Shown here one piece after another: positions 1 through 28,883 of a stretch of 29,025 nt of DNA. The first letter of the stretch is position 1. Each line of letters starts with the position of its first letter. The notes below the pieces were generated by a model. The model was not told the DNA's origin. It saw only the letters and a list, made by a program, of their open reading frames with translations, and made no database searches. Origin of the DNA: a virus; IMG/VR virus record IMGVR_UViG_3300027977_000152, positions 1 to 29,025 of that record. One strand, 5' to 3'. Position numbers and translations under genes: made by a program.

Positions 1-3000
1 GTCAAATTTTAAGATCAGACGGCCAAGAACCGGAATGGGCCACATTTGGTCTAGTCGATCATGTCTACTTTGTTGCCGGCCACGGTGTAGACCTGCCAAG
101 CCCTATACATGGTAGAACCTGGGACAAGCCATTCAAGACCATACGATATGCGTGTGAACAGGTAGAGCGCGGTCCTAGAAATCCTGATGCCACATATCTA
201 CTAGAACTAAATCGTGTGTTTATACAACGTGAAACCACAGAGTTCATACAAAATCAGATCACCAACAACATCGCACCATTCACTTCAGCTTTTGTCTATG
301 ATGACTTCAAGTGCGAAAGAGATGTGGGATTTGTTGTTGATGCACTGATTTATGATCTAAGACACGGCGGTAATGTTAAAATCAGAGGAGCAGCCAATGC
401 TCTCATAGGTGGACTCAGCGCAGAAGAAACAGAAGCTTATCCAGGACTTGCTGTAGAATCAGACGAATCTATCGCAGCCTATAACTACATGGTCACTGTG
501 CTTGAAGATGTGCTGGCACAGACAGCTCCAGCAGTGAATTATCAGACTCTGAACGGTGACAATTCAACTGCTACAGTAGCGCAGTATTTCAATGCAGATC
601 TCACAGCAGAATCAGGAGCCTATACCACAGCAGCTGGATTAGTTGAAGTGATTACTGACGCAATCACTGCTCGTGCAGCAGCGGTAACCGCTCCACAGAT
701 TGCAGCAGCATTGGCCAGTGTGCCAGCTCGCGTAAGTCCTAACAATCTTATCCGCATAGCTACTGGTCAGTACAGAGAAACACTGCCGATTATTGTTCCA
801 GAACAGACCTGTGTGATTGGAGACGAATTAAGATCCACAAATGCTGGTCCCGCAGGCAGCTTGACTAACCTTTCGGATGTCAAATACTCAATGGGTGCTC
901 TGTCAAGACTAGAAACTGTAGTCGGCCAGATTATCGCCGGCACCAATGTCACAGAAAGCGCAGGAAATACAGAAGTACAAAGTTCAGTATTTCCATATGC
1001 CAGCGCAGATGAACAAGCAGATATCACACAGCTGGTTAGAGTCATACAACATCAAATTGACTACCGTGTCAGTGCCACACACATGGTATCAAACGCAGAC
1101 CCTACAGGATATAACAGTGCATATCTCGTAGGCTACGGTGATGCAAGAACACTTATAAAAGAAAACAAAGAATTTATCAAAGCAGAAATCATCGCTTACA
1201 TCACGGTGAACTATCCTGCGGTGAAATATTCTAAAACCATATGCAAAAGAGACACAGGATTTATCGTCGATGCAATGGTCTATGATTTAACCTATGGCGG
1301 ATTTACCCAGACACTGAATGCAGGATTGGCCTATTTTGACGGCACTACAGGACTGGAAATTGATGCATCGGAAGTTACTGCTACTGTGGCAGCTTATGGT
1401 AGATTAAAAACTGTGATGCAACAGATTGCTGCCAACACCGCAGTGACAAAATCCACAGGCAATGCTGCTACTCAATTCACCGATGCTACCAACCTCACAG
1501 GTGGTGCAGCAGCCAGCGCATTCATCGGCGCCAACATTGATAACATCACCAACCTGTTGGCAGGTGACTCAACAGCAGCCACACCTCCCATAGTCACGGT
1601 GACTTCAATCACAGGCACCAATACTTTTGTTACAGCTGGCCACAGCCTCGAAGAAGGAGACTTGGTAGTTCCTATAGAAACACAGAATGGACTGACAGCT
1701 GGTACACGTTATTATGTTTCCGCTACAGGTCTAACTGCTACTGAATTTAGAGTAGCTACCTATTACGCTGGCGGCACACAATCAGGATTTACCAACGGTT
1801 CAGGATTGACCTTGGTGATGACCTATGAAGATCGTCCAGTGGCTACTAATGCAGTGACTACTACTACATCCCTGCGAAATGCTTTTATAACATTACAACA
1901 ACAGGTAAGCACCATTGTTACAGCAATGACTGCGTATATCGCTGCTAATTTTCCAACATTGGTCTATGACTCTGCTAAATGCGAACGTGATGCTAAGATC
2001 ATACTAGATGCAGTAGGCTATGACTTCATGTTCAATGCCAACGGGCAAACTAGAAACGCTGCATTGGCCTATCTAAGAGCCAGCTCATCGGATGTGTATA
2101 GTCTAGGACAGAAGGCAGCCACAAGAGCAGCTTTCACTTTTGTTAAAACACAGGCTCTAGCCAACGTAGGCGGAGATACCACTGCACAGGCTCGCATTGA
2201 AACACTAATGACACTGTTGGACGACATCATTTATGGTGCTACCAATGAAGGCAGTCGTTGTGCCACAGGCAACAGAATGGTTGACTACGCAGTTCTGCAG
2301 TTAGAAAGAAACAGAGACTATATTGTAGCAGAAATTGATGCCTATATAGATTCTACATATACTACTACTGTGACCAACGTCACAGCAACTACAGATGTAC
2401 TCACTTGTTCTAGCACAGCTTGGATGCAGCGTAATGCAGCTATTAGATTCACAGGTACTGTATTTGGTGGCATCAGCACAGGAACCACCTACTACATACA
2501 GAACGTAGTTAGTGCAACCGCATTTAAGATCGCCACCACTAGAGATTCAAACACAGCATTAGATATTGCATCTAATGCTGCAGGATCTATGACCGTGAGC
2601 TTGTATTACAGCAGTACAGCATGTCTACGAGATGTTGGTACCTATATTGATGCATTAAAATACGATTTGAAATATCCAGGCAACTACAAATCAAGATATG
2701 CTGCTAGATACTATGGCAACAGTGTGGTAGGCAGCCTAGAAGAAGACATGTACTATCTACGTGACGGTACTGGGGTTAGAGATCAAACTCTACAAGGACT
2801 TACTGGCGATCTACTTGCACCTAATGAATTTGGTACTTCAAGGGTTTCAGCCGGAGCCTATTGCTCCTTAGATCCAGGTTGGGGTCCAGAAGATTATCGA
2901 GTATGGATCAACACTCGTTCACCGTATGTACAGGGAGTGACCACACTGGGTACAGCAGCTATTGGACAGAAAATAGATGGCGCATTGCACAATGGAGGTA

Positions 3001-5999
3001 ATGATTCGATTGTTTCTAATGACTTCACGCAGGTTATATCAGACGGTATTGGAGCTTGGATCACCAACAACGGTCGTGCAGAACTGGTATCAGTATTCTC
3101 ATATTATGCACACATTGCATATCTTGCAGAAAACGGCGGCAGAATACGTGGTACCAACGGCAACAACTCTTATGGTGATTTTGGATCTGTGGCAGAAGGA
3201 TTTGATGCTACAGAAATCCCAGACACAGGAGTGGTAGACAATCGACTGAGTTTTGAAGCTGTGATAGATAGAATCATATCAACTGGTTCCTCCCTCATAC
3301 AAGTTGAATATCAAAACGCAGGTATAGACTACACAGAAGTGACCTACACAATCACAGGAGGCGGCACCGGAGCTGTGGTTATCGCTGATGAATTCCGCGA
3401 TGAGGCTGTATATGAAGTAAGAATGTTAGATCTTATCGACGACAGCACTAATGCAGAAGAAGCTCAAGGTAACCTCGGTGGGTTTGGTTATATAACCAAT
3501 TCAAACACCGCACAGGGTGGTACATCAACATCAGTAACCATAGCTGCCACAGACGGAGAAATCAGCACTGCTTACATAGGCATGAAGATAGTGTTAACTG
3601 GTGGCGCAGGTGTTGGACAGTTTGGTATCATCAACACCTATAACTCCGGTACTAAAGTGGCAGGCTTAGTAAAAGAATCTGACGGTACAGCAGGATTTGA
3701 TCACATGATTGCAGGCACTGGTATAGTAACACCAGATGCTTCATCAACATATATCATTGAACCCACAGTCACATTCGCAGCACCGGGATATACTAGCACA
3801 GCTAGTACACTGCCAACTTCAGGAGACTGGGTTGCAGTGAAATACGGTGAAACCGCAGCAGTATACGCATCGGTCACCGGCACCTACAGTGGTGCAGGTG
3901 TTGGTGCTACATTTACTGTGATACGCAACGGATGGAAATATACACCTTCCTTACAGGCGGCAGGTACAGGATATGTGAGATTACAAACCATTACCATATT
4001 AGGAACCAGTCTCGGCGGATTAAGCACAGCCAACGACCTAGTGATAACTATCACTGCGGTCAATGTTGCAACTGGTGCTATTTTAGAATTTGATCACGCA
4101 GGATACGGCATAGGTGGTAGATATGTAGCTCTACGTGGTGCTAGCACAGTTGGTGCAACATCCGAAGATGGAGTTTTGTGGACCACTAGAACCAGCTTGA
4201 TGCCCAGTGCGGCAACCTGGTCATCAATGGCTGCAGGCCTGTTTGACGACGGATCCACAGTGGGCAAGGTCAGCAAATTTGTAGCAGTGGCTGGTGTCGC
4301 TGCCAACACCACCGGAGCATACAGTTCGGATGGTATCACTTGGTCAGCAACCAGCATGCAGACTTCTGCGGTATGGGTTGATGTAGCGTTTGGTGCTCAA
4401 AAATTCGTAACTGTTAGTAGTGATGTAACCACAGTGAGAATCAGCAATGACGGCGAAAACTGGGATCAAACTGGAACATTGACCACTACTGGATTTACAG
4501 CTATTGCCTACGGTAAAAACCGATTTGTTGCTATAAAGAGAGGCACCTCAGTGGCCAATTATGCAACTTCGACCACAGTCACAGGCACATGGACTGCAAG
4601 TGCATTGCCAAGTTCGTCAAACTGGGAGAGCATAGCCTACGGTAACAACAGATTTGTTGCTATTTCAAACACCAACGGCGCAATTGCAGCTTATAGTTTT
4701 GACGGGATAACTTGGGCAGCAAGTACATTACCAGCCACAGCAGATTGGTACAAAGTCACATATGGACAGGGAGTATTCCTTGCTGTTAGCGAATCCACAG
4801 TGGCAGCAACATCACCAGATGGCGTTACTTGGACTCTAAGAGCCACATCTACAGCAGCCAGCGGATTCAACGCAATCACCTTCGGTAACAGAGATAGATA
4901 CGGATTGTTCGTAGGTGTCGGCGGCGGAACAGGACAAGTAGCTACATATATCAGAGCAGGGGCCACTGCTAAAGGCCGTGCTCTAGTAGCTGCTAACAAA
5001 CTGTTCCAAGTCAACATTACAGAACCAGGTTCAGGGTACGACACTGTGCCTACTATCACATTTGTAGATCCCAACAACACATTTGAATCGCCAGTAGAAG
5101 TGAGACTCAACAGCGGAGTGCTGTCAAACCCCACGTTTGTCAATCGCGGGGTGAATTACACCACAGGCAGTGGAGAAGTAGATACGGGAGATGGATATTC
5201 AGATCTATATCAGCCGGGGTCATTTGTATCTGTACGGAGATTGACTCAGCAGCCTACTCCAGGCGCTAACGTGGTATTCAGTCATTTGCCAAATGATGTT
5301 TTCAAATTGGTAAATGTGATCACGTTCTTAGGTGTCAACGATGGCGCTTATTCAGCATTCTTCCAAATAAGCCCTGCACTTACTATTAATCAAGCACCCA
5401 ATCATCTTACCACAGTGACTACACGGCTACGCTATAGTCAGGTAAGACTTACTGGTCACGATTTCTTGGACATAGGCACAGGCAGTTTTATAGAAACCAA
5501 CTATCCTGGATTGTCTACCCAACCAGCTATACCAGCAAACGAAACCGTTGAAAATGGCGGAGGTAGAGTGTTCTTTACCGCCACAGACCAAGATGGTAAT
5601 TTCCGAGTAGGCGGATTGTTCAACATTGAACAAAGCACAGGAATCGCTACACTGAATGCAGATGCATTCAATATTTCAGGTCTGCAGGAACTTAATCTGG
5701 GCAATGTAACATTGGGCGGCGGATCTGCTACGATCACTGAATTTTCAACAGATCCGTTCTTTACCGCAGATTCAGACAACCTTGTGCCCACTCAACGTGC
5801 GATCAAGGCCTTTATCGCTGGTCAGATCGGCGGAGGAGGAGCTAGTTTGAACGTGAACTCAGTCACAGCTGGCAGCATATTCATCAGTTCAAACATCATA
5901 ACCACTACCACCCTCGCAGCTATCAACATCAATGCTACTGTTGAATTCCGTGGGGGAGTAATTGGCCTTCCGATAGCGTTCAATTACTTTTTAACATAA
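1..5999 (+). CDS. Giant modular virion structural protein (fibre/adhesin type), 5' partial
   Basis: The frame is open from the first full codon at nt 3 to TAA at 5997, giving 1998 visible residues; the true start lies upstream of the window. The first visible residues (VYFVAGHGVD, then GRTWDKPFKTIRYACE) resemble the large structural proteins of marine T4-like phages. The N-terminal half carries four copies of a C-x-RD-x-G-x3-DA-x2-YDL-like motif (Cys codons at 312, 1242, 1980, 2622), separated by beta-rich linkers such as GTRYYVSATGLTATEFRVAT. Nucleotides 4113-4920 encode about six repeats of the form F-V-A-x(n)-S-x-DG-x-TW, which reads as a BNR/kelch-like beta-propeller. The C-terminus (GGRVFFTATDQDGNFRVGG, then DNLVPTQRAIKAFI) is a typical marine-phage fibre ending. 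I infer a tail- or baseplate-attached host-contact protein. No enzymatic motif is evident. Role confidence is moderate; reality of the gene is near certain. Confidence 0.85.
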   Translation, partial: QILRSDGQEPEWATFGLVDHVYFVAGHGVDLPSPIHGRTWDKPFKTIRYACEQVERGPRNPDATYLLELNRVFIQRETTEFIQNQITNNIAPFTSAFVYDDFKCERDVGFVVDALIYDLRHGGNVKIRGAANALIGGLSAEETEAYPGLAVESDESIAAYNYMVTVLEDVLAQTAPAVNYQTLNGDNSTATVAQYFNADLTAESGAYTTAAGLVEVITDAITARAAAVTAPQIAAALASVPARVSPNNLIRIATGQYRETLPIIVPEQTCVIGDELRSTNAGPAGSLTNLSDVKYSMGALSRLETVVGQIIAGTNVTESAGNTEVQSSVFPYASADEQADITQLVRVIQHQIDYRVSATHMVSNADPTGYNSAYLVGYGDARTLIKENKEFIKAEIIAYITVNYPAVKYSKTICKRDTGFIVDAMVYDLTYGGFTQTLNAGLAYFDGTTGLEIDASEVTATVAAYGRLKTVMQQIAANTAVTKSTGNAATQFTDATNLTGGAAASAFIGANIDNITNLLAGDSTAATPPIVTVTSITGTNTFVTAGHSLEEGDLVVPIETQNGLTAGTRYYVSATGLTATEFRVATYYAGGTQSGFTNGSGLTLVMTYEDRPVATNAVTTTTSLRNAFITLQQQVSTIVTAMTAYIAANFPTLVYDSAKCERDAKIILDAVGYDFMFNANGQTRNAALAYLRASSSDVYSLGQKAATRAAFTFVKTQALANVGGDTTAQARIETLMTLLDDIIYGATNEGSRCATGNRMVDYAVLQLERNRDYIVAEIDAYIDSTYTTTVTNVTATTDVLTCSSTAWMQRNAAIRFTGTVFGGISTGTTYYIQNVVSATAFKIATTRDSNTALDIASNAAGSMTVSLYYSSTACLRDVGTYIDALKYDLKYPGNYKSRYAARYYGNSVVGSLEEDMYYLRDGTGVRDQTLQGLTGDLLAPNEFGTSRVSAGAYCSLDPGWGPEDYRVWINTRSPYVQGVTTLGTAAIGQKIDGALHNGGNDSIVSNDFTQVISDGIGAWITNNGRAELVSVFSYYAHIAYLAENGGRIRGTNGNNSYGDFGSVAEGFDATEIPDTGVVDNRLSFEAVIDRIISTGSSLIQVEYQNAGIDYTEVTYTITGGGTGAVVIADEFRDEAVYEVRMLDLIDDSTNAEEAQGNLGGFGYITNSNTAQGGTSTSVTIAATDGEISTAYIGMKIVLTGGAGVGQFGIINTYNSGTKVAGLVKESDGTAGFDHMIAGTGIVTPDASSTYIIEPTVTFAAPGYTSTASTLPTSGDWVAVKYGETAAVYASVTGTYSGAGVGATFTVIRNGWKYTPSLQAAGTGYVRLQTITILGTSLGGLSTANDLVITITAVNVATGAILEFDHAGYGIGGRYVALRGASTVGATSEDGVLWTTRTSLMPSAATWSSMAAGLFDDGSTVGKVSKFVAVAGVAANTTGAYSSDGITWSATSMQTSAVWVDVAFGAQKFVTVSSDVTTVRISNDGENWDQTGTLTTTGFTAIAYGKNRFVAIKRGTSVANYATSTTVTGTWTASALPSSSNWESIAYGNNRFVAISNTNGAIAAYSFDGITWAASTLPATADWYKVTYGQGVFLAVSESTVAATSPDGVTWTLRATSTAASGFNAITFGNRDRYGLFVGVGGGTGQVATYIRAGATAKGRALVAANKLFQVNITEPGSGYDTVPTITFVDPNNTFESPVEVRLNSGVLSNPTFVNRGVNYTTGSGEVDTGDGYSDLYQPGSFVSVRRLTQQPTPGANVVFSHLPNDVFKLVNVITFLGVNDGAYSAFFQISPALTINQAPNHLTTVTTRLRYSQVRLTGHDFLDIGTGSFIETNYPGLSTQPAIPANETVENGGGRVFFTATDQDGNFRVGGLFNIEQSTGIATLNADAFNISGLQELNLGNVTLGGGSATITEFSTDPFFTADSDNLVPTQRAIKAFIAGQIGGGGASLNVNSVTAGSIFISSNIITTTTLAAININATVEFRGGVIGLPIAFNYFLT

Positions 6000-6020: not shown

Positions 6021-6347
6021 ATGCCAACAGGAAGACTAGGCGCAGCTACTTTACTAGCTACGACAGATACATCGATTTACACAGTGCCCAGCAACACGTT
6101 CACAGTGGCCACAGTTTCTATCTGCAATAGAAATGCCACAGCAGTCACTGTGCGGCTGGCCTTAGCGGCAGCAGCAACTCCCGCTGCCAACGGTTCAGAA
6201 TATTTGGAATTCGGAGTCACAATATCAGCCAACTCTGTGCTAGAGAGAACTGGTATCGTGATGAAAGCCACAGAACAATTAGTGGTTTACAGCAGCACGG
6301 CCAATGTCAGTGCTGTGGCCTACGGAATTGAAACAAGCACAGCTTAA
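6021..6347 (+). CDS. Small beta-rich virion structural protein
   Basis: 108 aa, rich in Ala, Thr, Val and Ser, with alternating hydrophobic strands (TDTSIYTVPSNTFTVATVSI) and no membrane segment, Cys cluster or catalytic motif. The pattern suggests a small beta-sandwich, such as a fibre collar, trimerisation or decoration protein. The ATG at 6021 is supported by GGAG eight nt upstream and by the late promoter motif at the end of the preceding gene. It sits between the giant fibre gene and the two Gly/Cys-rich genes, which argues for a structural role. No specific family is recognised. Confidence 0.7.
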   Translation: MPTGRLGAATLLATTDTSIYTVPSNTFTVATVSICNRNATAVTVRLALAAAATPAANGSEYLEFGVTISANSVLERTGIVMKATEQLVVYSSTANVSAVAYGIETSTA

Positions 6348-6362
6348 TAGGGAATAGATATT

Positions 6363-7964
6363 ATGGGACGGTTTGTACCAATAGAATTTACAACTCAGGT
6401 CGCTGAAAAACAACAGCCAAAGATTGCTAACGCTAGAGCCAGCTACGATGGCAAGCAGTGTTGGCAGTACAGGGCAATCTATGAGAGACCAGGATCATAC
6501 ACATTTACTGTTCCGTCGGGTGTGACCTGTGTAAAAACTGTGGTTGTAGGAGGCGGTGGTAAGCCATCATATGGCACCAATGGAAATTGTTGCTCGTTCG
6601 CAGGTGCCGGCGGCGCATACAGTGAAAAGTGTATGACTGTTACCAGTGGCGCAGCATTGCAGATACAGGTAGGCCGCCAACAACAAGATTCGGCAGTGTG
6701 CTGTAATACTGTGTTGGTGCATACAGCAGGAGGTGCATCAGCACAAGTTCCAGGAGTTGCCACAGGCGGAGATTGGAACAGTCGAGGCGGCTGTAGTGGA
6801 TATAGTTGCAACTATTGTAGCGGATCAGTCAGTCATTATTGCGGATCATGCAAATATTTTAGTACTACCAACTGTTGCGGATACTGTTTTGTTTATCAAT
6901 ATGATGATGTTCAAATGGGCAGCTCAAACTGCTGTAATGCTATATTTGTAGGCGGCGCTAGTGCTGGATCACCACGCAACAGTTGTGGAGGCTGTTCCAG
7001 TGATATGTGCGGATATCTGCACAGTGGAATTGCAGGAGGCGGTGCTGGCATCGGCGACCAGTGTAGGCAAACTATTTGGCACTATAACTGCTGCTCTTGC
7101 GTTTGCGTAGTATGGCAAGGCGATGGCATGACCATGAGCACTAACCATCCAACATCAGCTGAAGGCGGTGGCGGCAGTGAAGGTCGTAGACGGAAAATGT
7201 GTCGCAGCATAACATATGGAGCCTGTGACTATTCTGTATGGGCCAGCGGTGCTGCCGGAACGGGAGGTCCTGAAGGAGACAGCCAGACCAACTTTCAGTT
7301 TGAATGGGGTTACGAAAGCATCTGCGCATACCCATACGGCGGTGGATACCAAATGCCTCAAGCCAGAATGCAGGTACAACGTGAGGCTCCCTGCAGAATC
7401 AACTGGTGGGATATCACTGACATCTGTGGATCAGGCAGTCCAGGACACAGTCAAGAACATAATTACAATCAATGCGGTTATATGGTGGGCGGAATCAGTG
7501 TTCCGGTCTGGCCTGAAAATTCAGGAGAAGGTGCAGGCACCGGCGGCATTATCACATACTGTTGTAATCCAGACCAAATGGGCATGGGTTATGGAAATGC
7601 ATCAAACAGCGGCGGCCCTTCAGTTAACTGGACACTGTTGTGCCACTTGGGTGTGTGTAATAAAACGGAACAGGCATGGTTGCCTGGCATGCAAAATGCA
7701 TTGTTTCCATTCTTTATTACCTGCGCAGGTACACTAGGCGGTTCAGGCGGTGTTGGTTGGTGCGGATTCACCAGCAAGGCTGGCAAGGGTGGCGGTGGCG
7801 GTCAAGCCAAGTGCCAATTCTTATGCGTGTGCTGGGGTGGAACCTTTGACCGTTGCAATAACAGTGGTGCAAATCCGCTACTGGCTTTTCCTCCATGTTT
7901 ATTGGATCAAATGGTCAGCAACGCAGGCACTGGTATAGCCATAATATATTACAGGGAAGCATAA
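6363..7964 (+). CDS. Gly/Cys-rich virion protein A (putative fibre-tip adhesin)
   Basis: 533 aa with 42 cysteines and many glycine tracts. A beta-rich N-terminal module (GSYTFTVPSGVTC then VVVGGGG, about residues 47-73) resembles glycine-rich phage fibre domains. The middle holds a dense cysteine cluster of the form C-x4-C-x2-C-x(n)-SHYCGSC-x(n)-CCGYC. The C-terminal third has glycine runs (GEGAGTGG, GTLGGSGG, AGKGGGGG) and ends in GTGIAIIYYREA. It is a paralogue of the next gene, which starts one nt after this stop. Glycine-lattice adhesins such as phage S16 gp38 offer a structural analogy, but cysteine at about 8% is not part of that family description. The ATG at 6363 follows AGGGA at 6349-6353. 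A role in receptor binding or a cross-linked fibre tip is inference. Confidence 0.75.
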   Translation: MGRFVPIEFTTQVAEKQQPKIANARASYDGKQCWQYRAIYERPGSYTFTVPSGVTCVKTVVVGGGGKPSYGTNGNCCSFAGAGGAYSEKCMTVTSGAALQIQVGRQQQDSAVCCNTVLVHTAGGASAQVPGVATGGDWNSRGGCSGYSCNYCSGSVSHYCGSCKYFSTTNCCGYCFVYQYDDVQMGSSNCCNAIFVGGASAGSPRNSCGGCSSDMCGYLHSGIAGGGAGIGDQCRQTIWHYNCCSCVCVVWQGDGMTMSTNHPTSAEGGGGSEGRRRKMCRSITYGACDYSVWASGAAGTGGPEGDSQTNFQFEWGYESICAYPYGGGYQMPQARMQVQREAPCRINWWDITDICGSGSPGHSQEHNYNQCGYMVGGISVPVWPENSGEGAGTGGIITYCCNPDQMGMGYGNASNSGGPSVNWTLLCHLGVCNKTEQAWLPGMQNALFPFFITCAGTLGGSGGVGWCGFTSKAGKGGGGGQAKCQFLCVCWGGTFDRCNNSGANPLLAFPPCLLDQMVSNAGTGIAIIYYREA

Positions 7965-7965
7965 C

Positions 7966-9615
7966 ATGGGACGGTTTATAAGCACAGGTACCACACAGGT
8001 AGGAACAAATTGCTGTCAAGCAGTGATAAATTCAACCTGCTATCAGGTGAATACGCATCGCTACAACTACGATAATAATGCATGTTGGCAAAACAGAGTA
8101 ATTGTTGACACCCCAGGCTCATATTCATTTACAGTACCAGCGGGAGTCACTTGTCTGCGCACCATTGCTGTAGGTGGTGGCGGAAAAAGCTATATCAACT
8201 GTTCGGCATGCTGCGGCACAGCCGGTGGCGGTGGTGGATACGCAGAAAGACAAGACACTGTGGCTTCTGGCTGCGTAGTCACTGTGGTTGTTGGGCGTCA
8301 ACAACAAGACACAACCATAAGTTATACCAATTCAGCAGGCACAGCAAGAGTGCTCACAGGAGGCGGCGCAGTTGGTCCAGCAGGAGGAGTCGCATCCGGA
8401 GGAGACTGGAACAGCAACGGCGGTAACGGCGGTATTAATTGTAACTACTGTGGTGGCCTAAGCCACTATTGCGGCAGCTGTATCTATCAATATGCTACCA
8501 CATGTTGTGGATACTGCGTGGTTTGGTCAGGAGTGTCTGCAAGACAACTCGATCCGCCGCATGGCAGCAACGACTGTTGTGTGGCTAGATATTCAGGTGG
8601 CGGCAGTGCAGGTTCATGGATCTGGAGCACAGGTGGCATGGGACAATGTGCTGGCAATGCTGTGCCAGTGTTTAGTTTGGGGTATGGAGCCTCAGCAGGC
8701 GGCGGTGGAGGAATTGGAGTTATAGGAAGATCAGTAATCCGCAGTCCGTGGTGCACTTGTACCTGCCACAAAAACGGTTACAACGGCACCGCCGGCGGAA
8801 ATCAATGGCGCAACGTAGATTGCCCCAATGCTGCAGGCGGCGGTGGGGGCACAAAATGGATGTGCTGCTTCCGTTGCGATTGCCAAACATGGGAAGGCAC
8901 TTGCCAGCAAGGCCGCTATAGAAACGGTCCCGGTGGATGGGGCGGACGATGCAACAATGAAGGTCGAGGTGCTTATCAGTATTGGGGCTATAGAACTGCT
9001 CCAAACGGTCACGGTTTACCTTACCACATTGACGTGCCTCAAGGCCCTAGTCCTTGCAAATACGAATGGCACGACATCCACGAAATGCAAGGCAGTGGAA
9101 CCAGTGGCAGATCAATGATGGGTGTATGTTGGCCTAATCAAGACTTTATGAACTCTACGTTTGATTGCATGCCTGATCCTATTGCAGGCGAAGGTGCAGG
9201 CACTGGCGGCATGTCCTATCATTGTTGTGCATTGACTTTTCACTATCCAAACTGCTGTACAGGCGGAGTTGATGCCTGTGGCAGTATTCACTGGCCGTTG
9301 ATATGTTGTCTAGGGACAACAAATAGAATGTGCTGCGCTGACAAGATGTCGCAGGCGCTGTTTCCATACATCGTGAGTTGTGCTGGAACACTAGGCGGGT
9401 CAGGCGGAACAGGTGTGTGCCACCTAGCCAGCAAAGCAGGCAAAGGTGGCGGTGCCGGAGTAAACAGAAGTTATATCTTGTGTATCTGTTGGGGCGGTTC
9501 ATTTAACCTCTGTAACGGATCAGGGGCAGCATTGGCATTTCCGCCTTGCGATTTAGATTGGAGAGCCAGTACTGCCGGCACTGGCATGGCAATAATCTAC
9601 TGGAAAGATGCTTAA
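7966..9615 (+). CDS. Gly/Cys-rich virion protein B (paralogue of the preceding gene)
   Basis: 549 aa with 47 cysteines. It is collinear with the upstream protein: both begin MGRF, share GSYxFTVPxGVTC, GRQQQD, GGDWNS, SHYCGSC, CCGYC, GEGAGTGG, SCAGTLGGSGG and SKAGKGGG, and end with AFPPC followed by GTGxAIIYxxxA. Its cysteines are often paired (CC) or in CxC and CxxC arrangements. Several glycine tracts are longer than in copy A (AGGGGG at about residue 240, AAGGGGG at about 290). The start follows AGGGA at 7953-7957 with 8-nt spacing, and the one-nt gap implies cotranscription with copy A. This is evidently a tandem duplication that has diverged mostly between the conserved blocks. The receptor-binding role is inferred from position and composition only. 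Confidence 0.75.
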   Translation: MGRFISTGTTQVGTNCCQAVINSTCYQVNTHRYNYDNNACWQNRVIVDTPGSYSFTVPAGVTCLRTIAVGGGGKSYINCSACCGTAGGGGGYAERQDTVASGCVVTVVVGRQQQDTTISYTNSAGTARVLTGGGAVGPAGGVASGGDWNSNGGNGGINCNYCGGLSHYCGSCIYQYATTCCGYCVVWSGVSARQLDPPHGSNDCCVARYSGGGSAGSWIWSTGGMGQCAGNAVPVFSLGYGASAGGGGGIGVIGRSVIRSPWCTCTCHKNGYNGTAGGNQWRNVDCPNAAGGGGGTKWMCCFRCDCQTWEGTCQQGRYRNGPGGWGGRCNNEGRGAYQYWGYRTAPNGHGLPYHIDVPQGPSPCKYEWHDIHEMQGSGTSGRSMMGVCWPNQDFMNSTFDCMPDPIAGEGAGTGGMSYHCCALTFHYPNCCTGGVDACGSIHWPLICCLGTTNRMCCADKMSQALFPYIVSCAGTLGGSGGTGVCHLASKAGKGGGAGVNRSYILCICWGGSFNLCNGSGAALAFPPCDLDWRASTAGTGMAIIYWKDA

Positions 9616-9638: not shown

Positions 9639-10130
9639 ATGTGGGCAAAAGTAGTTAATGACGAAATATTTCAAACTTGGGATGAAGATCCAACAGGATT
9701 GTGGCATCCAGATCAACTGGTATATTGGCAAGAAGTTCCAGACCATGTTAATGTTGGATGGAAACGCAAAAACAACGTTTGGATAAATGGCGCAGATTGG
9801 TTAGAACAGCATCAAGCTGAAAATCCCCTGCCACCTCCAGGGCCTCCCACAGCAGGAATTAGTGTGAGCCCGGTGGATTACCTGGACAGAATTGAGTTTA
9901 TCTTTGAAGTACATAACGGCGGAATGGTAGACAGTTATGAATGGACCATCCAAGGAAAAACCTATGATACTGAACGAGTGGAGTTAACTGTTAATAAAAT
10001 ACCATTTCAAGAACAGGTTATCGCAGTATCGTTGACAGCTGTTGGGCCAGGTGGGTCAAATACACTTACGTTAGAAGGTGACACTGCTGTTAAAGTGGGC
10101 ATGGTTTCATATCCAGGAGATAAGCCCTAA
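9639..10130 (+). CDS. PKD/Ig-like small fibre-associated protein
   Basis: 163 aa. Residues 1-60 are Trp-rich (WAKVVNDEIFQTW, YWQEVP, VWINGADW), followed by a proline hinge (PLPPPGPP, about 64-71). The remainder reads as a PKD/Ig-like beta-sandwich, with DSYEWTIQG and then AVSLTAVGPGGSNTLTLEG matching the YxW and V-x-LT-x(n)-G pattern of PKD domains. A TAGGAGA ribosome-binding site precedes the ATG. It is the last gene of the first fibre block and ends tail-to-tail with the minus-strand oxygenase gene, overlapping its stop by 4 nt. It may be a small fibre subunit, a fibre chaperone or a head/tail decoration protein; I cannot distinguish these. Confidence 0.65.
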   Translation: MWAKVVNDEIFQTWDEDPTGLWHPDQLVYWQEVPDHVNVGWKRKNNVWINGADWLEQHQAENPLPPPGPPTAGISVSPVDYLDRIEFIFEVHNGGMVDSYEWTIQGKTYDTERVELTVNKIPFQEQVIAVSLTAVGPGGSNTLTLEGDTAVKVGMVSYPGDKP

Positions 10131-10639
10131 CGCCAGTCTGGGCCGAGGAAAAAACCAAATACACAATATCTAGTTCCTGCAGTTATTTTACTTACTGCAT
10201 GTAATAAAAAAGAAGGGAAGACTAACAATCTTCCCTTCTTTGCCTCTAGTGTATGATCATGCACACAAAATTCTCCACCCTCATACTGGTCATTCAGTGT
10301 TAGTGTAAACGATATTTTTCGTTGCAGCATATGATCTAGGCCAGATTTGCAGTCCATATGCATGGTATCATAATGGCTGCCTGTGGGATACTTGGCAAAA
10401 TAACATTCTACGCTGTTACCTAGCTGAAATTTAAAAAATTTTTCGTTGGCATGCAGAACAGAGCCTAATAATTCTGGATATTCATTTATATCGATAGTTT
10501 TGATATATACATCTCTGCTTTGATAATCTTCTGTTTCTTGCACCAAGTGATGTAGATCACAATCGTGTTTAGCAATAATACTGCTACAGTATTCATCGTT
10601 GACTATGTCCACCCACTTCAGTTGGAATTGATCAAACAT
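10127..10639 (-). CDS. 2OG-Fe(II) oxygenase (HxD...H type), third gene of a minus-strand operon
   Basis: 170 aa from the ATG at 10639. The frame can be extended to a TTG at 10669, but the ATG gives only an 8-nt overlap with the upstream gene and is preferred. The double-stranded beta-helix iron site is visible: H89-Y-D91, distal H147 in FPSFLLHAV and R157 in the expected 2-oxoglutarate-binding position (GTRYCVFGFF). This is the prolyl-4-hydroxylase/PKHD-like pattern. The expected reaction is Fe(II)- and 2-oxoglutarate-dependent hydroxylation of a protein side chain or small molecule, with the substrate unknown. It lies downstream of two other oxygenase genes. A strong terminator-like hairpin lies inside its 3' coding part (10206-10241). 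Confidence 0.8.
   Translation of the reverse strand: MFDQFQLKWVDIVNDEYCSSIIAKHDCDLHHLVQETEDYQSRDVYIKTIDINEYPELLGSVLHANEKFFKFQLGNSVECYFAKYPTGSHYDTMHMDCKSGLDHMLQRKISFTLTLNDQYEGGEFCVHDHTLEAKKGRLLVFPSFLLHAVSKITAGTRYCVFGFFLGPDWR
10206..10241 (-). terminator. Intrinsic-terminator-like hairpin inside the oxygenase coding sequence
   Basis: A perfect 13-bp inverted repeat, AAAGAAGGGAAGA (10209-10221) paired with 10229-10241, has a 7-nt loop. Read on the minus strand it is followed directly by six T residues (10211-10206). It lies about 80 nt before the stop of the last minus-strand oxygenase gene, over the codons for the KKGRLLVFPSF segment. On the plus strand the stem is not followed by a T-run. The structure is certain; its use as a terminator is inferred. 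Confidence 0.55.
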
Positions 10640-11225
10640 GGGGAGCAAGTTTTTTAAAAATTGTATCAACGAGATAATAATCGTCGACTGATTCTATAGT
10701 GGCAATCTCCATATTAATAGACACTCTATTTTGCAAAGAATCAACAGGCATAGGCTCGTGAGGCAGCCAACTAGGCATAATTATAAGATCCAAATTTTCA
10801 GGAATAAAAATTGTATCTTGATCTTCATACACAAGCCGTAACCCGCCATCTGTTTTTGAGGGAATATTTACATAAAATATTCCATTCACTGACGATGTTC
10901 GTAAATGATGATGTAGATTAGAACGATAAGTGTCTTTGTTATACACATTGGCCCAACAATAGTTTCGCTGCTTGGTGCTGAGATTGAAAGGGCCAAATGT
11001 ATCAGAGACTATGGAAAAAAATGTATTATAGACCTTGGCAAAATCGTGACACGGATCTTTAACTTCGAAGGTGTAGCCGCCATGATAACTTGGATTTCTA
11101 GTCAATTGTTGTTCAATACAAGCAAGCATTCTTTCTTGTAATAGGAGGTCTGGAGATTTAATTTTAGTGCTTAACACATACGGAATCTCTATATGATAAT
11201 TAATGGTTTCAGTTTCACATATCAT
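10632..11225 (-). CDS. 2OG-Fe(II) oxygenase-like protein (HxH...H variant), second gene of the operon
   Basis: 197 aa. The segment NLHHHLRTSSVNGIFYVNIP followed by LDLIIMPSWLPHE and NRVSINMEI matches the family of putative 2OG-Fe(II) oxygenases with an HxH first pair (H105/H107), distal H156 and R167. The central S-V-N-G-I-F-Y-V strand corresponds to SGVYYV in its neighbour. The ATG at 11225 overlaps the upstream stop as ATGA, indicating translational coupling. The substrate is unknown; hydroxylation of a protein or nucleotide/sugar compound is possible. H-x-H instead of H-x-D is seen in this group, so I do not treat it as inactivating. Confidence 0.75.
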   Translation of the reverse strand: MICETETINYHIEIPYVLSTKIKSPDLLLQERMLACIEQQLTRNPSYHGGYTFEVKDPCHDFAKVYNTFFSIVSDTFGPFNLSTKQRNYCWANVYNKDTYRSNLHHHLRTSSVNGIFYVNIPSKTDGGLRLVYEDQDTIFIPENLDLIIMPSWLPHEPMPVDSLQNRVSINMEIATIESVDDYYLVDTIFKKLAPHV

Positions 11226-11866
11226 ACGTCATACCTGTGTTGATTTGATCTATCAGTTGTGATATTAAAACTAATTATTATTCTATCTTTGTCTACTTCA
11301 TTGGGATTGGTTTCGTGTTTTAAATAACTGGGAAATACCACCAACATGCCTGATTTTGGTGTGATAATATTTTTAAAAACTCCTCGACGTAGAGTTTGCT
11401 CTGGCTCATTTTGCAGTGCATATTCCTTTGGATCAGTGAATAGCAAATCTCCACACTGGTCGTGCGCAGCCACATAATATACTCCGCTCCACTGCATGGG
11501 TTTGTGATCATGTAAAGGAACAAAAGCACCTTTTGGATATACACTTATCCAGGAATTTACAAATGTCCAATCACCTTGATAATCAAGCTGGTGAAAAAAT
11601 TCCTGGATTTTTTCAGCTATACAATCGTGGAAAAAATTAAAATTAGCATTTTCGGTCAAACTTCCTCCCATAAACGAAGTGTATCCCAATTGATCTTTTT
11701 GATCTGTGATAACATTAGAATTCCATTTATGGCTGAGCACACGTTTTTTGTCTAAGTTGTCAAAGACCTTGTGAATTTCCGGCATTAATTTTTGATTTAG
11801 ATACTCATGATTGTCTATGATGCTTTCAAGCACTACTACAGGAAATAAGTTAAGTATTTTGTTCAT
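11222..11866 (-). CDS. 2OG-Fe(II) oxygenase (HxH...H type), first gene of the operon
   Basis: 214 aa. The N-terminus NLFPVVVLESIIDNH is typical of putative 2OG-Fe(II) oxygenases common in marine phages. Iron ligands are H119-D-H121 in VPLHDHKPMQWSGVYYV and H184 in VVFPSYLKHETNPN; R195 in DRIIISFN is the likely 2-oxoglutarate ligand. All three oxygenase genes of this operon share the strand order and the (F/M)PSxLxH element but are strongly diverged, pointing to separate substrates rather than recent duplication. No convincing Shine-Dalgarno sequence precedes the ATG. The upstream 79-nt gap is shared with the divergent sulfotransferase-like gene. Confidence 0.82.
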   Translation of the reverse strand: MNKILNLFPVVVLESIIDNHEYLNQKLMPEIHKVFDNLDKKRVLSHKWNSNVITDQKDQLGYTSFMGGSLTENANFNFFHDCIAEKIQEFFHQLDYQGDWTFVNSWISVYPKGAFVPLHDHKPMQWSGVYYVAAHDQCGDLLFTDPKEYALQNEPEQTLRRGVFKNIITPKSGMLVVFPSYLKHETNPNEVDKDRIIISFNITTDRSNQHRYDV

Positions 11867-15552: not shown

Positions 15553-17247
15553 ATGTGGCTATTAGGCATAAACATTGGACATAACGGCAGTGCAGCATTA
15601 TTTCATGATAAAGAATTAATTTTTTACATTGAAGAAGATCGTCTCAGCAGACTGAAATATGATGGAAATCCCTACCTTGGTATGGAAATGGCATTCAATT
15701 ATACCGATCATGTAGATTTTTTAATCTTGTGCGGTACAAGAAATGCATTTGGAAAAATGCCGTGGACCGGTGAAGATCCGTATACCTGTTATGCAAGAAA
15801 AAAACAACCCAAACACAAACTTGAGACTATTAAACTAGCCGACGACCACCATCTAACACATGCACTGACTGCGTTTTATAATTCTGGATTCGATGATGCA
15901 GCCGCCTTGATTATAGATGGTGCTGGTAGTGGTTGCAGGATTGAGGAGGGAGTGGTGCAACAAGAAACATGGGAAGTTGAATCAATCTGGTCAATGTCAT
16001 ATCCTGCGATATTTGAATGTCAATATAAAAATTATGGCACCAATGTTGTTGATAGTTTCAATGTTGAAGAAGATGGGTTCCCTATAGAAATATCAGACGG
16101 ACACGGAATTGTAAAAAGTTATGAAGCTGTAACACAATTTTTAGGATTTCATGCGATAGAAGCTGGAAAAACTATGGGGTTGGCACCTTACGGTAGTGCC
16201 AACGACAGTATCAAAATACACGAGGGTCGATTTAACAATAGATCGTTTATAAAACCTAAGTTTCCAGCCGGAAATGTATTGAGAACAGATTTATATCCAG
16301 AACTACGAGAATTAGAAAAAAACACAGAGTGGCACAACGACCCCGATAAAATTTCTCAGTATCACAAAGACATTTCGTATGCTGTGCAGAAGTCTGCAGA
16401 AGAACGAGTGTTTAACTTGATCCGAAAAACCATAGAGATGACTGGCAAAAAACAAATTGTAATTGCTGGCGGATTTGGATTAAATTGTGTAGCTAACTAT
16501 GAATACCTAAAAGAATTTCCAAATATCGAATTTTATCATGAACCGGTGAGTCATGATGGAGGCAACACGATGGGAGTGTGTCAATACATTTACCGTTCAG
16601 TTACCGAAGATTCCGAAAAATCTCCGCTGACCAGTTTATATTTGGGGCCTGATAGATCAGTATCCTATGAAAACACATTTGACGGCTTTTGTGTCGAGGA
16701 TACGTCTGCTGCAGATGTAGCAAAACTGTTGGTCGACCAAGAGATTGTTTGTTTATATCAGGGTCGCAGTGAAGCCGGTCCGCGAGCATTAGGCAACCGC
16801 AGCATATTATTTGACCCCACAGTGGTAAATGGCAAAGATATTGTCAACGAAGTAAAACGTCGTGAATGGTTTAGACCTTTTGCCGGCACCGTGATGGCTG
16901 AACATGCAACTGAGTGGTTTGATTTCCGTTCAAGAACAGATAGTCCATTCATGATGTATGCTGTAGATGTATTAGCGGAAAAGCGCGATATTATTCCGGC
17001 TATCACTCACGTCGATGGTACCTGCAGAATTCAAACAGTGACCAGTGAACAAAATCCACACTACTATGAATTGATCAGCGAGTTTAACAAAATTAAGAAT
17101 GTGCCTATCTTGTTTAATACTAGTTTTAACCTAGCAGGAGATCCGTTGGTTGAAACTGTAGCAGAAGCATTAGATACTTTGAAAAAATCTGATCTCAAAT
17201 ATCTTTGGTTGCCTGAAATTGGCAAATTGCTCACTAAGCAATCATGA
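15553..17247 (+). CDS. Carbamoyltransferase, NodU/CmcH/TobZ family
   Basis: 564 aa, the normal full length. The N-terminal Kae1-like domain begins LLGINIGHNGSAALF and carries DDHHLTHALTAFYNSGF (H99/H100 and H103, metal-binding region) followed by LIIDGAGSG. KTMGLAPYG is also typical. The C-terminal domain has QGRSEAGPRALGNRSILFDP (about residues 403-422), REWFRPFAGTVM and VPILFNTSFNLAGDPLVE, all hallmark motifs. The enzyme makes carbamoyl-adenylate from carbamoyl phosphate and ATP and transfers the carbamoyl group to a hydroxyl, usually on a sugar. The neighbouring glycosyltransferase and the ATGA-coupled oxygenase suggest one tailoring pathway. All visible key residues are intact. Confidence 0.92.
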   Translation: MWLLGINIGHNGSAALFHDKELIFYIEEDRLSRLKYDGNPYLGMEMAFNYTDHVDFLILCGTRNAFGKMPWTGEDPYTCYARKKQPKHKLETIKLADDHHLTHALTAFYNSGFDDAAALIIDGAGSGCRIEEGVVQQETWEVESIWSMSYPAIFECQYKNYGTNVVDSFNVEEDGFPIEISDGHGIVKSYEAVTQFLGFHAIEAGKTMGLAPYGSANDSIKIHEGRFNNRSFIKPKFPAGNVLRTDLYPELRELEKNTEWHNDPDKISQYHKDISYAVQKSAEERVFNLIRKTIEMTGKKQIVIAGGFGLNCVANYEYLKEFPNIEFYHEPVSHDGGNTMGVCQYIYRSVTEDSEKSPLTSLYLGPDRSVSYENTFDGFCVEDTSAADVAKLLVDQEIVCLYQGRSEAGPRALGNRSILFDPTVVNGKDIVNEVKRREWFRPFAGTVMAEHATEWFDFRSRTDSPFMMYAVDVLAEKRDIIPAITHVDGTCRIQTVTSEQNPHYYELISEFNKIKNVPILFNTSFNLAGDPLVETVAEALDTLKKSDLKYLWLPEIGKLLTKQS

Positions 17248-19981: not shown

Positions 19982-22012
19982 ATGGAAAAATATTATCAAT
20001 TAGGCACACATACCGAAGCAGAATGGGATGAATTAAATGCTGAACTAACTGCGGCAGGTCATGTCAACCAATCTGTTCCTGTTCGAGAAATAGAATGTGT
20101 AGATGATCAATTGCATAGCCCTACTCGCGGCACATATCTGTTAACTGATGCAGAAGCAGATGAATTAAGAAACGATCCTAGAATACGATTCATCAATATT
20201 GATTACAAAAGGTACGATGAATTTACACCACCACCTGACGAACTGCATTCAGTAAGACCAGATTTAGTAAACAGATACACTGCTGCGGTAAAAAATTACA
20301 GAGAATTTGAAGCTTCCAACACACTAGCTGCAACACCTAATACCTCAGACGTCAACAGAACCGGATATCAGCTTTATAGATGCACACAAAAATTAGATCC
20401 CTGGGTAGATACTGCGCTGGCAGACAATGCAGTGGTCAATACCAACATCCCACAATACGGGACAGGCAAGCACGTAGATGTTATAGTTGCAGATGACGGC
20501 ACCTGGATCGGCCATCCAGAATTTCAAAGCAATGCTGTGTCCGATTCTAGTCCGTTCGCAGCTGTGCCAAAGCCCAGCGGCTATGTTGGCGGCAATGTCT
20601 TACCAGGCAGCGGCACCTGTGATCTATTAGATCTAGTTCTAGACGCTCCATATTATTTAGATCCTGATTGGTTCAATGCTAATCCTGCGACAAGATTAAT
20701 CACCAGATGGGACGGCACTACGGTTCCTGTGGAATCGGTAGCAAGATCGTGGTGGTCAAACAGCGCCCTGCGCAGCGCACAGTTTGCCAATGCAGGCACA
20801 GTGAGTGTTTCTGCTTCGTATACTAGGGCAAACTGTAATGGCACCAACGCTGCATTATCTAGTGAAGGCGACCACGGAACTTGTTGTGCTGCACTAACCT
20901 ATGGAAGAACACAAGGATGGGCATATAACTCTAATAAATGGGTATTGGATCTCTACGGCGCTTACGGTACGAATATAGAACAGGGATTTGATATTCAAAA
21001 AATATTTCATCAATTAAAACCTGTAAATCCTTTGTACGGAACCAAGAATCCTACTATCATGTCCAACAGTTGGGGGTTTCGAGCCAACAAAGATCCCGGC
21101 GGTTTAACGTATTATTACACTCATAGATCAACAAGCAACACTGCCTACACCACCGAAGTAGGAATAAATTGGTTGAGTCATATGGGCACCCAAGGTGACG
21201 ACGGCCGCTGGAAATCAGAAATGAAAACCAATTCATTGACCACAGCGCAAGATGAATTGATTGATGCGGGAGTAATTTTTGTTGTGGCAGCTGGAAATTC
21301 AAATCAAAAACAGGTCAACTACGGGCATCCTGATTTTAACAATTTTATTACCACTACCAACGGAGGAAGTCTAGCCAATTCTACATTCAATGAGTTTGGA
21401 TATGCGGTATTTGGCACAACGAATAGAAGAGGATTTCCGCAACAAGGTGGAAAATATACCAAGGCAGACGGCTCTATAGATTACAAAACCATCAACATAG
21501 GTGCCCTTGATGACGATTTTAAAACTTCAAAAGAGGCCAAAGTTAGTTACAGCGATAGAGGAAACGCTATAGACGTATATGCTCCTGCAGATGGCACCTT
21601 GGCAGCAAATAGAGGATATGGCACAAACTGGCCAAGACCAGATACCTATGCTGCTCTCAGCTACAATTCCGGAAATACCACTGATGCTTCCTTTAGCGGT
21701 ACCAGTGCTGCCTGTCCTGTGGCTGCAGGTTTTTTAGCCACGGTGTTAGAGTGGAACAGAGACTGGACCTGGGTAGAAATCAAAACATGGTTGCAAACCC
21801 TAGAAACACAAGACGCTGCTAATTTTTACTTCGGCACAGAATCAACTACTACTAATACAGCTAATTGGCTGGACTATGAGAGTCTCGAAGGAGGCGATGC
21901 TCGAGTGCTTTATCAGGGACCGTTTGATGCTAGATTCAGGTCTGGACCAAGAATACTATCATCGGAATCATCGGGATTTATTATAAGAGGTCTTCGAATT
22001 AGGAACCGATAA
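19982..22012 (+). CDS. Subtilisin-like serine protease (S8) with I9-like N-terminal domain, probably virion-associated
   Basis: 676 aa. The S8 catalytic triad is complete: D171 in VDVIVADDGTWIGHPEF, H298 in EGDHGTCCAAL and S575 in FSGTSAACPVAAG. N439 in FVVAAGNSN is the oxyanion-hole Asn, and MSNSWG is another conserved segment. Residues about 1-80 (GTYLLTDAEADELRNDPRIR, then FINIDYKRY) read like an I9 inhibitor/propeptide fold. There is no secretion signal. The gene is sandwiched between two fibre genes with 7- and 20-nt gaps, so I infer a virion-borne protease that processes fibres or degrades host surface protein. About 70 C-terminal residues beyond the protease core are unassigned. No ribosome-binding site is evident. 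Confidence 0.85.
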   Translation: MEKYYQLGTHTEAEWDELNAELTAAGHVNQSVPVREIECVDDQLHSPTRGTYLLTDAEADELRNDPRIRFINIDYKRYDEFTPPPDELHSVRPDLVNRYTAAVKNYREFEASNTLAATPNTSDVNRTGYQLYRCTQKLDPWVDTALADNAVVNTNIPQYGTGKHVDVIVADDGTWIGHPEFQSNAVSDSSPFAAVPKPSGYVGGNVLPGSGTCDLLDLVLDAPYYLDPDWFNANPATRLITRWDGTTVPVESVARSWWSNSALRSAQFANAGTVSVSASYTRANCNGTNAALSSEGDHGTCCAALTYGRTQGWAYNSNKWVLDLYGAYGTNIEQGFDIQKIFHQLKPVNPLYGTKNPTIMSNSWGFRANKDPGGLTYYYTHRSTSNTAYTTEVGINWLSHMGTQGDDGRWKSEMKTNSLTTAQDELIDAGVIFVVAAGNSNQKQVNYGHPDFNNFITTTNGGSLANSTFNEFGYAVFGTTNRRGFPQQGGKYTKADGSIDYKTINIGALDDDFKTSKEAKVSYSDRGNAIDVYAPADGTLAANRGYGTNWPRPDTYAALSYNSGNTTDASFSGTSAACPVAAGFLATVLEWNRDWTWVEIKTWLQTLETQDAANFYFGTESTTTNTANWLDYESLEGGDARVLYQGPFDARFRSGPRILSSESSGFIIRGLRIRNR

Positions 22013-27947: not shown

Positions 27948-28619
27948 ATGATTATAGGGGTATGTGGTTTTATTGGCAGCGGCAAGGACACAGTCGCAGA
28001 CTATCTAGTTAACTTTCACGAATTTAGACGAGAATCATTTGCCAGCACACTGAAAGATGCGGTAGCAGCAGTATTTGGTTGGGACAGAACCATGCTGGAA
28101 GGTCGTACCAAAGCCGCACGTGAATGGCGAGAGCAGGTGGATCCGTGGTGGGCCAAACGACTGGACATGCCTACACTGACTCCTCGATGGGTCCTGCAAT
28201 ATTGGGGCACAGAAGTCTGTAGAAAATCCTTCCATGATGACATATGGATAGCCAGCCTAGAAAACAAACTACGAAATTCACAGGATCATGTGGTAATCTC
28301 AGACTGTCGTTTTCCTAATGAAATTACCAGTATACGTAATGCAGGTGGCAGAATCATCTGGGTACAACGTGGTCCATTGCCTGAGTGGTATGATACTGCC
28401 GTGGCAGCTAATCAAGGCTATAATTGGGCACACCAAGATCTCAAAATGAGAAAGATACACGCTTCGGAAACTGCTTGGGTAGGCACAGAGTTTGATCATG
28501 TCTTGATCAACGATCACAGCATAGACGAGCTCTACGACACAGTGAAATCAATAGTCAGCAACGAGATCACCTTGACGCCAAGTGACTCCCTCTTTGCTCA
28601 AAACGCCAGCACAGTTTAG
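27948..28619 (+). CDS. Deoxynucleoside monophosphate kinase (T4 gp1-like)
   Basis: 223 aa. The Walker A loop G7-F-I-G-S-G-K13-D-T is followed by VADYL, and SFASTLKDAVAAVFGWD is the helix seen after the P-loop in phage dNMP kinases. WVLQYWGTEVCRKSFHDDIW (81-100), ISDCRFPNEI (117-126), HASE (171-174) and LINDHSIDELY (186-196) complete the family pattern. The enzyme phosphorylates dNMPs to dNDPs for phage DNA synthesis in the cytoplasm. It has its own sigma70-type promoter and an AAGGAG ribosome-binding site, unlike the late genes beside it. Its last 72 nt overlap the 3' end of the convergent HNH-like gene. Confidence 0.88.
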   Translation: MIIGVCGFIGSGKDTVADYLVNFHEFRRESFASTLKDAVAAVFGWDRTMLEGRTKAAREWREQVDPWWAKRLDMPTLTPRWVLQYWGTEVCRKSFHDDIWIASLENKLRNSQDHVVISDCRFPNEITSIRNAGGRIIWVQRGPLPEWYDTAVAANQGYNWAHQDLKMRKIHASETAWVGTEFDHVLINDHSIDELYDTVKSIVSNEITLTPSDSLFAQNASTV

Positions 28620-28883
28620 ACATACAGTTTTTAGATTCGCAGGACGACAGTTGTCTAAATTGCCGTCCATGTGAAACACTCTAAATACTTCCGCATGCGG
28701 CGACCTGAATCCGCATTTCTCACATTGAGATTTCATCTTATAGCCACTGCGCAACCACCGTGGTACTCCTGCATATACACCATGAGTCAAGCAGATTTCA
28801 CAAAGACTTCTGTAATAGGTCTTGGAATTTTTCTTGTAGTTCACAGCACAGGGTCTTGCACCGCACTTGCATAATGGTCGCAT
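28548..28883 (-). CDS. HNH-like / multi-zinc-finger protein, possibly nuclease-inactive
   Basis: 111 aa. Cysteine pairs at C5/C7, C28/C31, C54/C57 and C88/C91 frame an HNH-like core: CEKCGF, then FHMDGNLDNCRPANLKTVCLNC (residues 70-91). H71, D73, N75, N83 and the zinc cysteines are present. The first His of the canonical HH pair is Phe (F70), and the His expected after the last Cys is Ala (A92), so cleavage activity is doubtful. The arrangement recalls a small conserved protein of cyanophage genomes. The ATG follows TTAAATA by 5 nt on the minus strand. Free-standing homing endonuclease relative and DNA- or RNA-binding regulator are both possible. Confidence 0.72.
   Translation of the reverse strand: MRPLCKCGARPCAVNYKKNSKTYYRSLCEICLTHGVYAGVPRWLRSGYKMKSQCEKCGFRSPHAEVFRVFHMDGNLDNCRPANLKTVCLNCAGVLSKEGVTWRQGDLVADY

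Follow-up and report, generated by a model that had tools for sequence, protein, structure and literature searches.

A tandem pair of cysteine- and glycine-rich proteins, predicted fibre-tip adhesins of an uncultured jumbo T4-like phage

We analysed two adjacent genes, ORF A and ORF B, in a 29,025-nucleotide stretch of viral DNA (hereafter the window), and found that they encode paralogous proteins with an unusually high content of both glycine and cysteine. From their predicted fold and their place behind a long tail fibre gene, A and B are probably fibre-tip adhesins, with the cysteines serving as structural braces of some kind.

Results

A tandem pair behind a long tail fibre gene

ORF A (6363-7964) encodes 533 amino acids, of which 42 are cysteine (7.9%) and 92 glycine (17.3%); ORF B (7966-9615) encodes 549 amino acids, with 47 cysteines (8.6%) and 105 glycines (19.1%). 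The coordinates, lengths and cysteine counts given in an earlier note on this DNA proved exact on recount. The parts of the locus, all on the plus strand, are as follows.

3..5999, plus strand: C-terminal 1998 aa of a long tail fibre protein, its reading frame running off the edge of the window (best tail fibre match among the PHROGs, E 2.3e-73)
6021..6347, plus strand: 108 aa ORF between the fibre gene and A (phrog_11338, a tail-fibre PHROG, E 1.2e-10; conserved position)
6363..7964, plus strand: ORF A, predicted Cys/Gly-rich tip adhesin, copy A (own clade in the tree; Pam3 fibre fold match)
6459..6728, plus strand: A residues 33-122, predicted first strands of the TNF-like beta-sandwich, including glycine motifs 1 and 2 (AlphaFold2 strands 36-122, mostly high pLDDT)
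6729..7802, plus strand: A residues 123-480, predicted lattice of glycine motifs 3-12 (out of 12) with long, variable loops that carry cysteines (motif segmentation of the 34-row family alignment; entropy profile)
7803..7961, plus strand: A residues 481-533, predicted C-terminal strands closing the sandwich (AGTGIAIIYY; AlphaFold2 strand 525-532; family-conserved)
7966..9615, plus strand: ORF B, predicted Cys/Gly-rich tip adhesin, copy B (own clade; Pam3 fibre fold match)
8083..8361, plus strand: B residues 40-132, predicted first strands of the TNF-like beta-sandwich, including glycine motifs 1 and 2 (AlphaFold2 strands 43-132)
8362..9459, plus strand: B residues 133-498, predicted lattice of glycine motifs 3-12 (out of 12) with long, variable loops that carry cysteines (motif segmentation; entropy profile)
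9460..9612, plus strand: B residues 499-549, predicted C-terminal strands closing the sandwich (AlphaFold2 strand 541-546)
9639..10130, plus strand: 163 aa ORF directly after B (position kept in most relatives; family alignment)

Cysteine makes up 0-3.3% of the window's remaining likely gene products, mostly 0-3%. The exception is a small ORF of 111 aa at 28548-28883 (minus strand) with 9% Cys, which by eye resembles an HNH endonuclease-like zinc protein and is unrelated to A/B.

The two proteins share 47% sequence identity, and 29 cysteine positions coincide in their alignment. The same note had pointed to many CC, CxC and CxxC pairs. When we compared the proteins with shuffles of the same cysteine content, CC doublets were in excess, clearly in B (9 versus 3.9+-1.8) and weakly in A (6 versus 3.2+-1.7), but CxC and CxxC stood at or near chance in both proteins. 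The proposed core, SHYCGSC...CCGYC, does occur in both A and B; however, SHYCGSC is absent from several homologues, whereas CCGYC is retained in the aligned rows of the family alignment. Histidine is scarce, with 8 residues in A and 12 in B.

Distribution and gene order

When IMG/VR was scanned with patterns derived from a profile, 26 contigs proved to carry the family; some are near-duplicates, and two measure 356 kb and 280 kb. One further family contig, of 12 kb, had been binned in an actinobacterial MAG. Searches with the A and B sequences against 50,697 phage records gave no match to any isolate phage, and a sequence search of the PDB returned no true relative. The structural genes of the window are closest to those of jumbo T4-like myophages (Phosso, PA5oct, Atu_ph07, CBB, RaK2), at about 30-50% identity, and on this sequence evidence the source is an uncultured jumbo T4-like phage.

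At all loci long enough to be read, A is directly followed by B, in the order long fibre gene, ORF of about 108 aa, A, B; at most of them an ORF of the 163 aa type comes after B. Exactly two copies were present in 12 of the 12 records searched whole, and on this count we rejected a larger multi-copy array. In a maximum-likelihood tree, all A and all B sequences separated into two clades with full support, indicating that the duplication is old and that both copies have been retained. At one locus (L019:9527-11226), the coding sequence of copy B is divided between two frames, owing either to a sequencing error or to a real disruption.

In most pairwise comparisons the 163 aa ORF shows lower conservation than A/B, with 30-52% identity between distant pairs. 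By position only, it is a possible fibre chaperone; an adjacent TFA-type chaperone gene would be expected for a Pam3-type tip. That identity was unsupported, however, as the 163 aa ORF matched no chaperone or otherwise informative family. Adjoining the A/B cassette, three consecutive 2OG-Fe(II) oxygenase-like ORFs occupy 10127-11866 (minus strand); they are kept in most relatives but were unrecognised in the flanks of L023 and L025, and thus are no obligate partner. Elsewhere in the window, an ORF cluster between fibre genes includes a Nol-like carbamoyltransferase (15553-17247; phrog_1601, E 6.4e-155) that is kept in many relatives, and a subtilase-type (Peptidase_S8) ORF of 676 aa (19982-22012) is flanked by two tail fibre-like ORFs.

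Cysteine is conserved at the amino-acid level

The earlier note expected cysteine to be conserved above average among homologues. We found that it was second only to glycine in conservation rank, within A, within B and between A and B. Mean entropy at cysteine positions was 0.62 bits in A and 0.88 bits in B, compared with 1.43 and 1.42 bits at residues other than cysteine and glycine. Restricted to the third of the sequence that varies most, the corresponding values were 0.68 (A) and 1.02 (B) bits for cysteine versus 2.21 and 2.12 bits for the others. Twenty cysteine columns are invariant in A and 15 in B, and among homologues whose median pairwise identity was 54% (A) or 52% (B), both TGT and TGC were used in every one of them (20/20 in A, 15/15 in B). 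The use of both codons throughout indicates that conservation acts on the amino acid. Many further cysteines, outside these columns, differ between lineages.

We also looked for homologues in which the cysteines had been freely replaced, which the earlier note would have counted as a refutation. None was found: every intact family member contains 7.6-9.9% Cys, a range outside which only the frame-split copy B of L019 and truncated ORFs fall. Low-cysteine family members were sought in viral contigs through the motif GEGAGTGG, and again there were none; the other ORFs that bear this motif are not family members. Judged from these alignments, the high cysteine content is kept by selection on the amino acid.

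Predicted fold and glycine motifs

AlphaFold2 models built from the 34-row family alignment reached a pTM of 0.81 for A and 0.83 for B, with a mean pLDDT of 76 and low-confidence loops. In both predicted models, strands from the N-terminal region form a TNF-like beta-sandwich that is closed by a strand at the C-terminus. The best fold match was the Pam3 fibre (7ypx), with Z scores of 11.1 (A) and 11.4 (B) and 26% identity over about 160 residues. The Bxb1 tail-tip chain, the glycine-rich wing-brush protein gp33, matched at Z 9.8 (A) and 9.9 (B), and the ALK/LTK glycine-rich domain at Z 7-9.6 to A and 6-8 to B, whereas the next, unrelated rows of the comparison scored Z <=4.

Twelve glycine motifs are conserved in the alignment under an operational definition, a count that depends on the threshold. 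The segments between them run from 6 to 90 residues; the long ones are variable and carry most of the cysteines. Neither A nor B has a predicted helix within its first ~40 residues, where an N-terminal helical domain might lie; either the separate fibre or the product of the 108 aa ORF may serve for docking.

Profile comparisons related the family to known glycine-rich proteins as well. Against Pfam PF21722 (Gly_rich_2), with a curated cut-off of 24.3 bits, two family members scored 25.7 and 26.7 bits and ORF A of the window, with a match starting at residue 43, scored 21.6, while ORF B was not among the reported matches; 9 of the 34 members matched at E<0.01. The family profile aligned with P-SSM2 gp126 over 65 columns (hhalign probability 91.6%, E 8e-7).

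By these models, A and B look like a glycine-lattice fold of the TNF-like/glycine-rich type. The earlier proposal of a glycine-lattice tip adhesin thus gains support, since the models match the glycine-rich PPII/PGII lattices of Pam3, Bxb1 gp33 and the ALK glycine-rich domain. The earlier note had named S16 gp38 as a known example; among known structures, Pam3 gp24 and Bxb1 gp33 come closer to A and B.

Comparison with known glycine-rich proteins

Pam3 gp24 has a TNF-like domain and a glycine-rich domain, in which 12 motifs form a four-layer lattice with a variable distal tip, held to recognise the receptor (PMC9608196); S16 gp38 and ALK contain glycine-rich PPII bundles too (PMC6851490, PMC13243192). 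With this cyanophage tail fibre (PDB 7YPX/7YFW), A and B share the TNF-like sandwich, as predicted, and putatively the glycine-rich lattice, with 12 motifs in Pam3 and 12 conserved in A/B. The glycine-rich domain of Pam3 gp24, however, is ~125 residues long and 39% Gly, whereas the A/B insert spans ~360 residues at ~21% Gly and includes long loops and about 30 Cys. At its N-terminus Pam3 gp24 also carries a helical domain, used in docking and trimerisation; none is predicted in A/B.

The tail wing brush protein gp33 of mycobacteriophage Bxb1 (PDB 9D93) is a glycine-rich fold match and passes Gly_rich_2, but it has 1 Cys in 267 aa, 30% Gly and a siphophage tail-tip context. Salmonella phage S16 gp38 (PF05268) resembles A/B in being encoded after the distal fibre gene and, going by the predicted models, in its polyglycine-II lattice with hypervariable distal loops, but is built on a beta-helix base rather than a TNF-like sandwich and has 2 Cys in 249 aa. 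The gp38 models PF05268 and PF21721 matched neither A, B nor any of the 34 members, whereas S16 gp38 itself matches in the same library. The extracellular glycine-rich (TG) domain of ALK/LTK also has a TNF-like sandwich with a glycine PPII-helix insert; it is an animal receptor domain, about 15-18% identical to A/B, with far fewer cysteines. P-SSM2 gp126 (PSSM2_126), a glycine-rich protein from a structural gene region, matches the first sandwich strands at the sequence level but has 2 Cys in 485 aa and 27.6% Gly.

Together with Bxb1 gp29 (3 Cys in 617 aa), the phage proteins gp33, gp38 and gp126 contain 0.4-0.8% Cys; A/B contain about ten times more. Known members of the fold have short loops and nearly pure glycine motifs, whereas A/B have long loops and cysteines. 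Our literature search, which covered few subscription journals, found no precedent for cysteine-rich, glycine-rich phage tips. The novelty of such members is judged from a small, hand-picked comparison set and from the lack of database and literature matches. The best reading of the predicted models is that the A/B family is a cysteine-laced variant of the known TNF-like/glycine-lattice tip.

A receptor-binding tip

In pairs of loci with close fibres, A and B diverge faster than the fibre C-terminus. Between L010 and L021, the fibre C-terminus is 89% identical, compared with 64% for A and 63% for B; between L010 and L026 the values are 82%, 64% and 55%, and between the window and L004, 79%, 56% and 62%. 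No such contrast was seen where the fibres differ strongly, nor between the nearly identical L004 and L009. Given the position behind the fibre gene, the fold, the variable loops and this faster divergence, A and B are best read as a receptor-binding tip. Fold, gene order and divergence lead us to infer that A and B reside on the virion and bind a receptor, and the long tail fibre protein (3..5999), whose gene also lies upstream of A in relatives, would be the carrier of the tip.

Alternatively, A and B could be glycine-rich structural or assembly proteins off the fibre tip, for instance part of a baseplate or wing, or a folding factor that stays outside the virion. The close fold matches include a tail wing brush, Bxb1 gp33, and three family members match phrog_863, 'tail fiber assembly'. 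However, the position of A/B behind the long fibre gene is fixed, much like that of gp38 after gp37 in S16, and variable loops and rapid divergence suit receptor contact; we consider an off-tip role distinctly unlikely.

We propose that the long tail fibre of the phage is tipped by A and B, two paralogous proteins that bind the receptor. In each, the N-terminal ~90 residues and the last strands would form the TNF-like beta-sandwich, from which some 12 glycine-rich motifs would extend and pack as a polyglycine/PPII-like lattice. The long, highly variable loops between motifs would contact the host, and the conserved cysteines would brace loops and lattice, most likely as disulfides that form at lysis, when the virion is released from the reducing cytoplasm.

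What the cysteines may do

The disulfide step is the least-supported part of this proposal; granted the rest, we put it slightly above an even chance. Co-loss of cysteine column pairs on the trees was not significantly more frequent than that of matched non-cysteine columns (p 0.3 in A, 0.08-0.13 in B, with 15-17 sequences per clade). The total cysteine count is odd in most full-length homologues, and even counts per segment were no commoner than chance. With so few sequences per clade the co-loss and parity tests are underpowered, and they neither support nor exclude disulfides. In the relatives' records, neither DsbA nor thioredoxin was matched, so no dedicated oxidation machinery was detected there. 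Glutaredoxin, ordinary in T4-like phages, appeared only in the two largest records; an Erv1/Alr search carries no weight, as control genomes gave no match. Disulfides formed after release are nevertheless our first choice, because the extracellular ALK glycine-rich domain, of the same fold, contains disulfides and because CxxC motifs of the metal type are not enriched in A and B.

The main rival to disulfides is that the cysteines of the same tip adhesin coordinate metal (Zn or Fe-S) taken up in the reducing cytoplasm and so stabilise the loops without oxidation. Synthesis in that compartment, with neither DsbA nor thioredoxin detected, would suit such a tip; odd cysteine counts and the absence of pair co-loss fit clusters of three or four ligands at least as well as pairs, and the near-invariant CCGYC contains a CxxC. 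Yet neither CxC nor CxxC clearly exceeds the shuffles, histidine is scarce, no metal-site family matched A, B or the family members, and SHYCGSC, the other half of a would-be four-cysteine site, is lost in several homologues. Metal binding is in our view unlikely. We give only a slim probability to another arrangement, in which many free thiols of the tip adhesin exchange with host surface thiols or disulfides, or link A, B and neighbouring chains covalently through intermolecular disulfides. It would accommodate the odd counts and the two paralogues of similar cysteine load that always stand side by side, but exposure of the thiols is hypothetical, and the literature search described above found no precedent for it.

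Discussion

Taken as a whole, the locus tentatively suggests a self-hardening display of variable loops, an idea that we hold at somewhat less than even confidence: a glycine lattice whose long hypervariable loops are secured by cysteines, 15-20 of them invariant and many more semi-variable, present as two paralogues per fibre, made reduced and locked by oxidation (or metal) on release. The phage glycine-lattice tips compared here are nearly free of cysteine, whereas the A/B family keeps about 45 cysteines per protein under strong selection. This raises the question, directly testable, of how a tailed phage that assembles in a reducing cytoplasm uses cysteine on the surface that touches the host. 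Oxidation of the tip on release would couple the hardening of the fibre to lysis, whereas with bound metal the phage would carry a metal-loaded tip. Either way, A and B would offer a framework for long variable loops, with a bearing on host recognition and on protein scaffolds.
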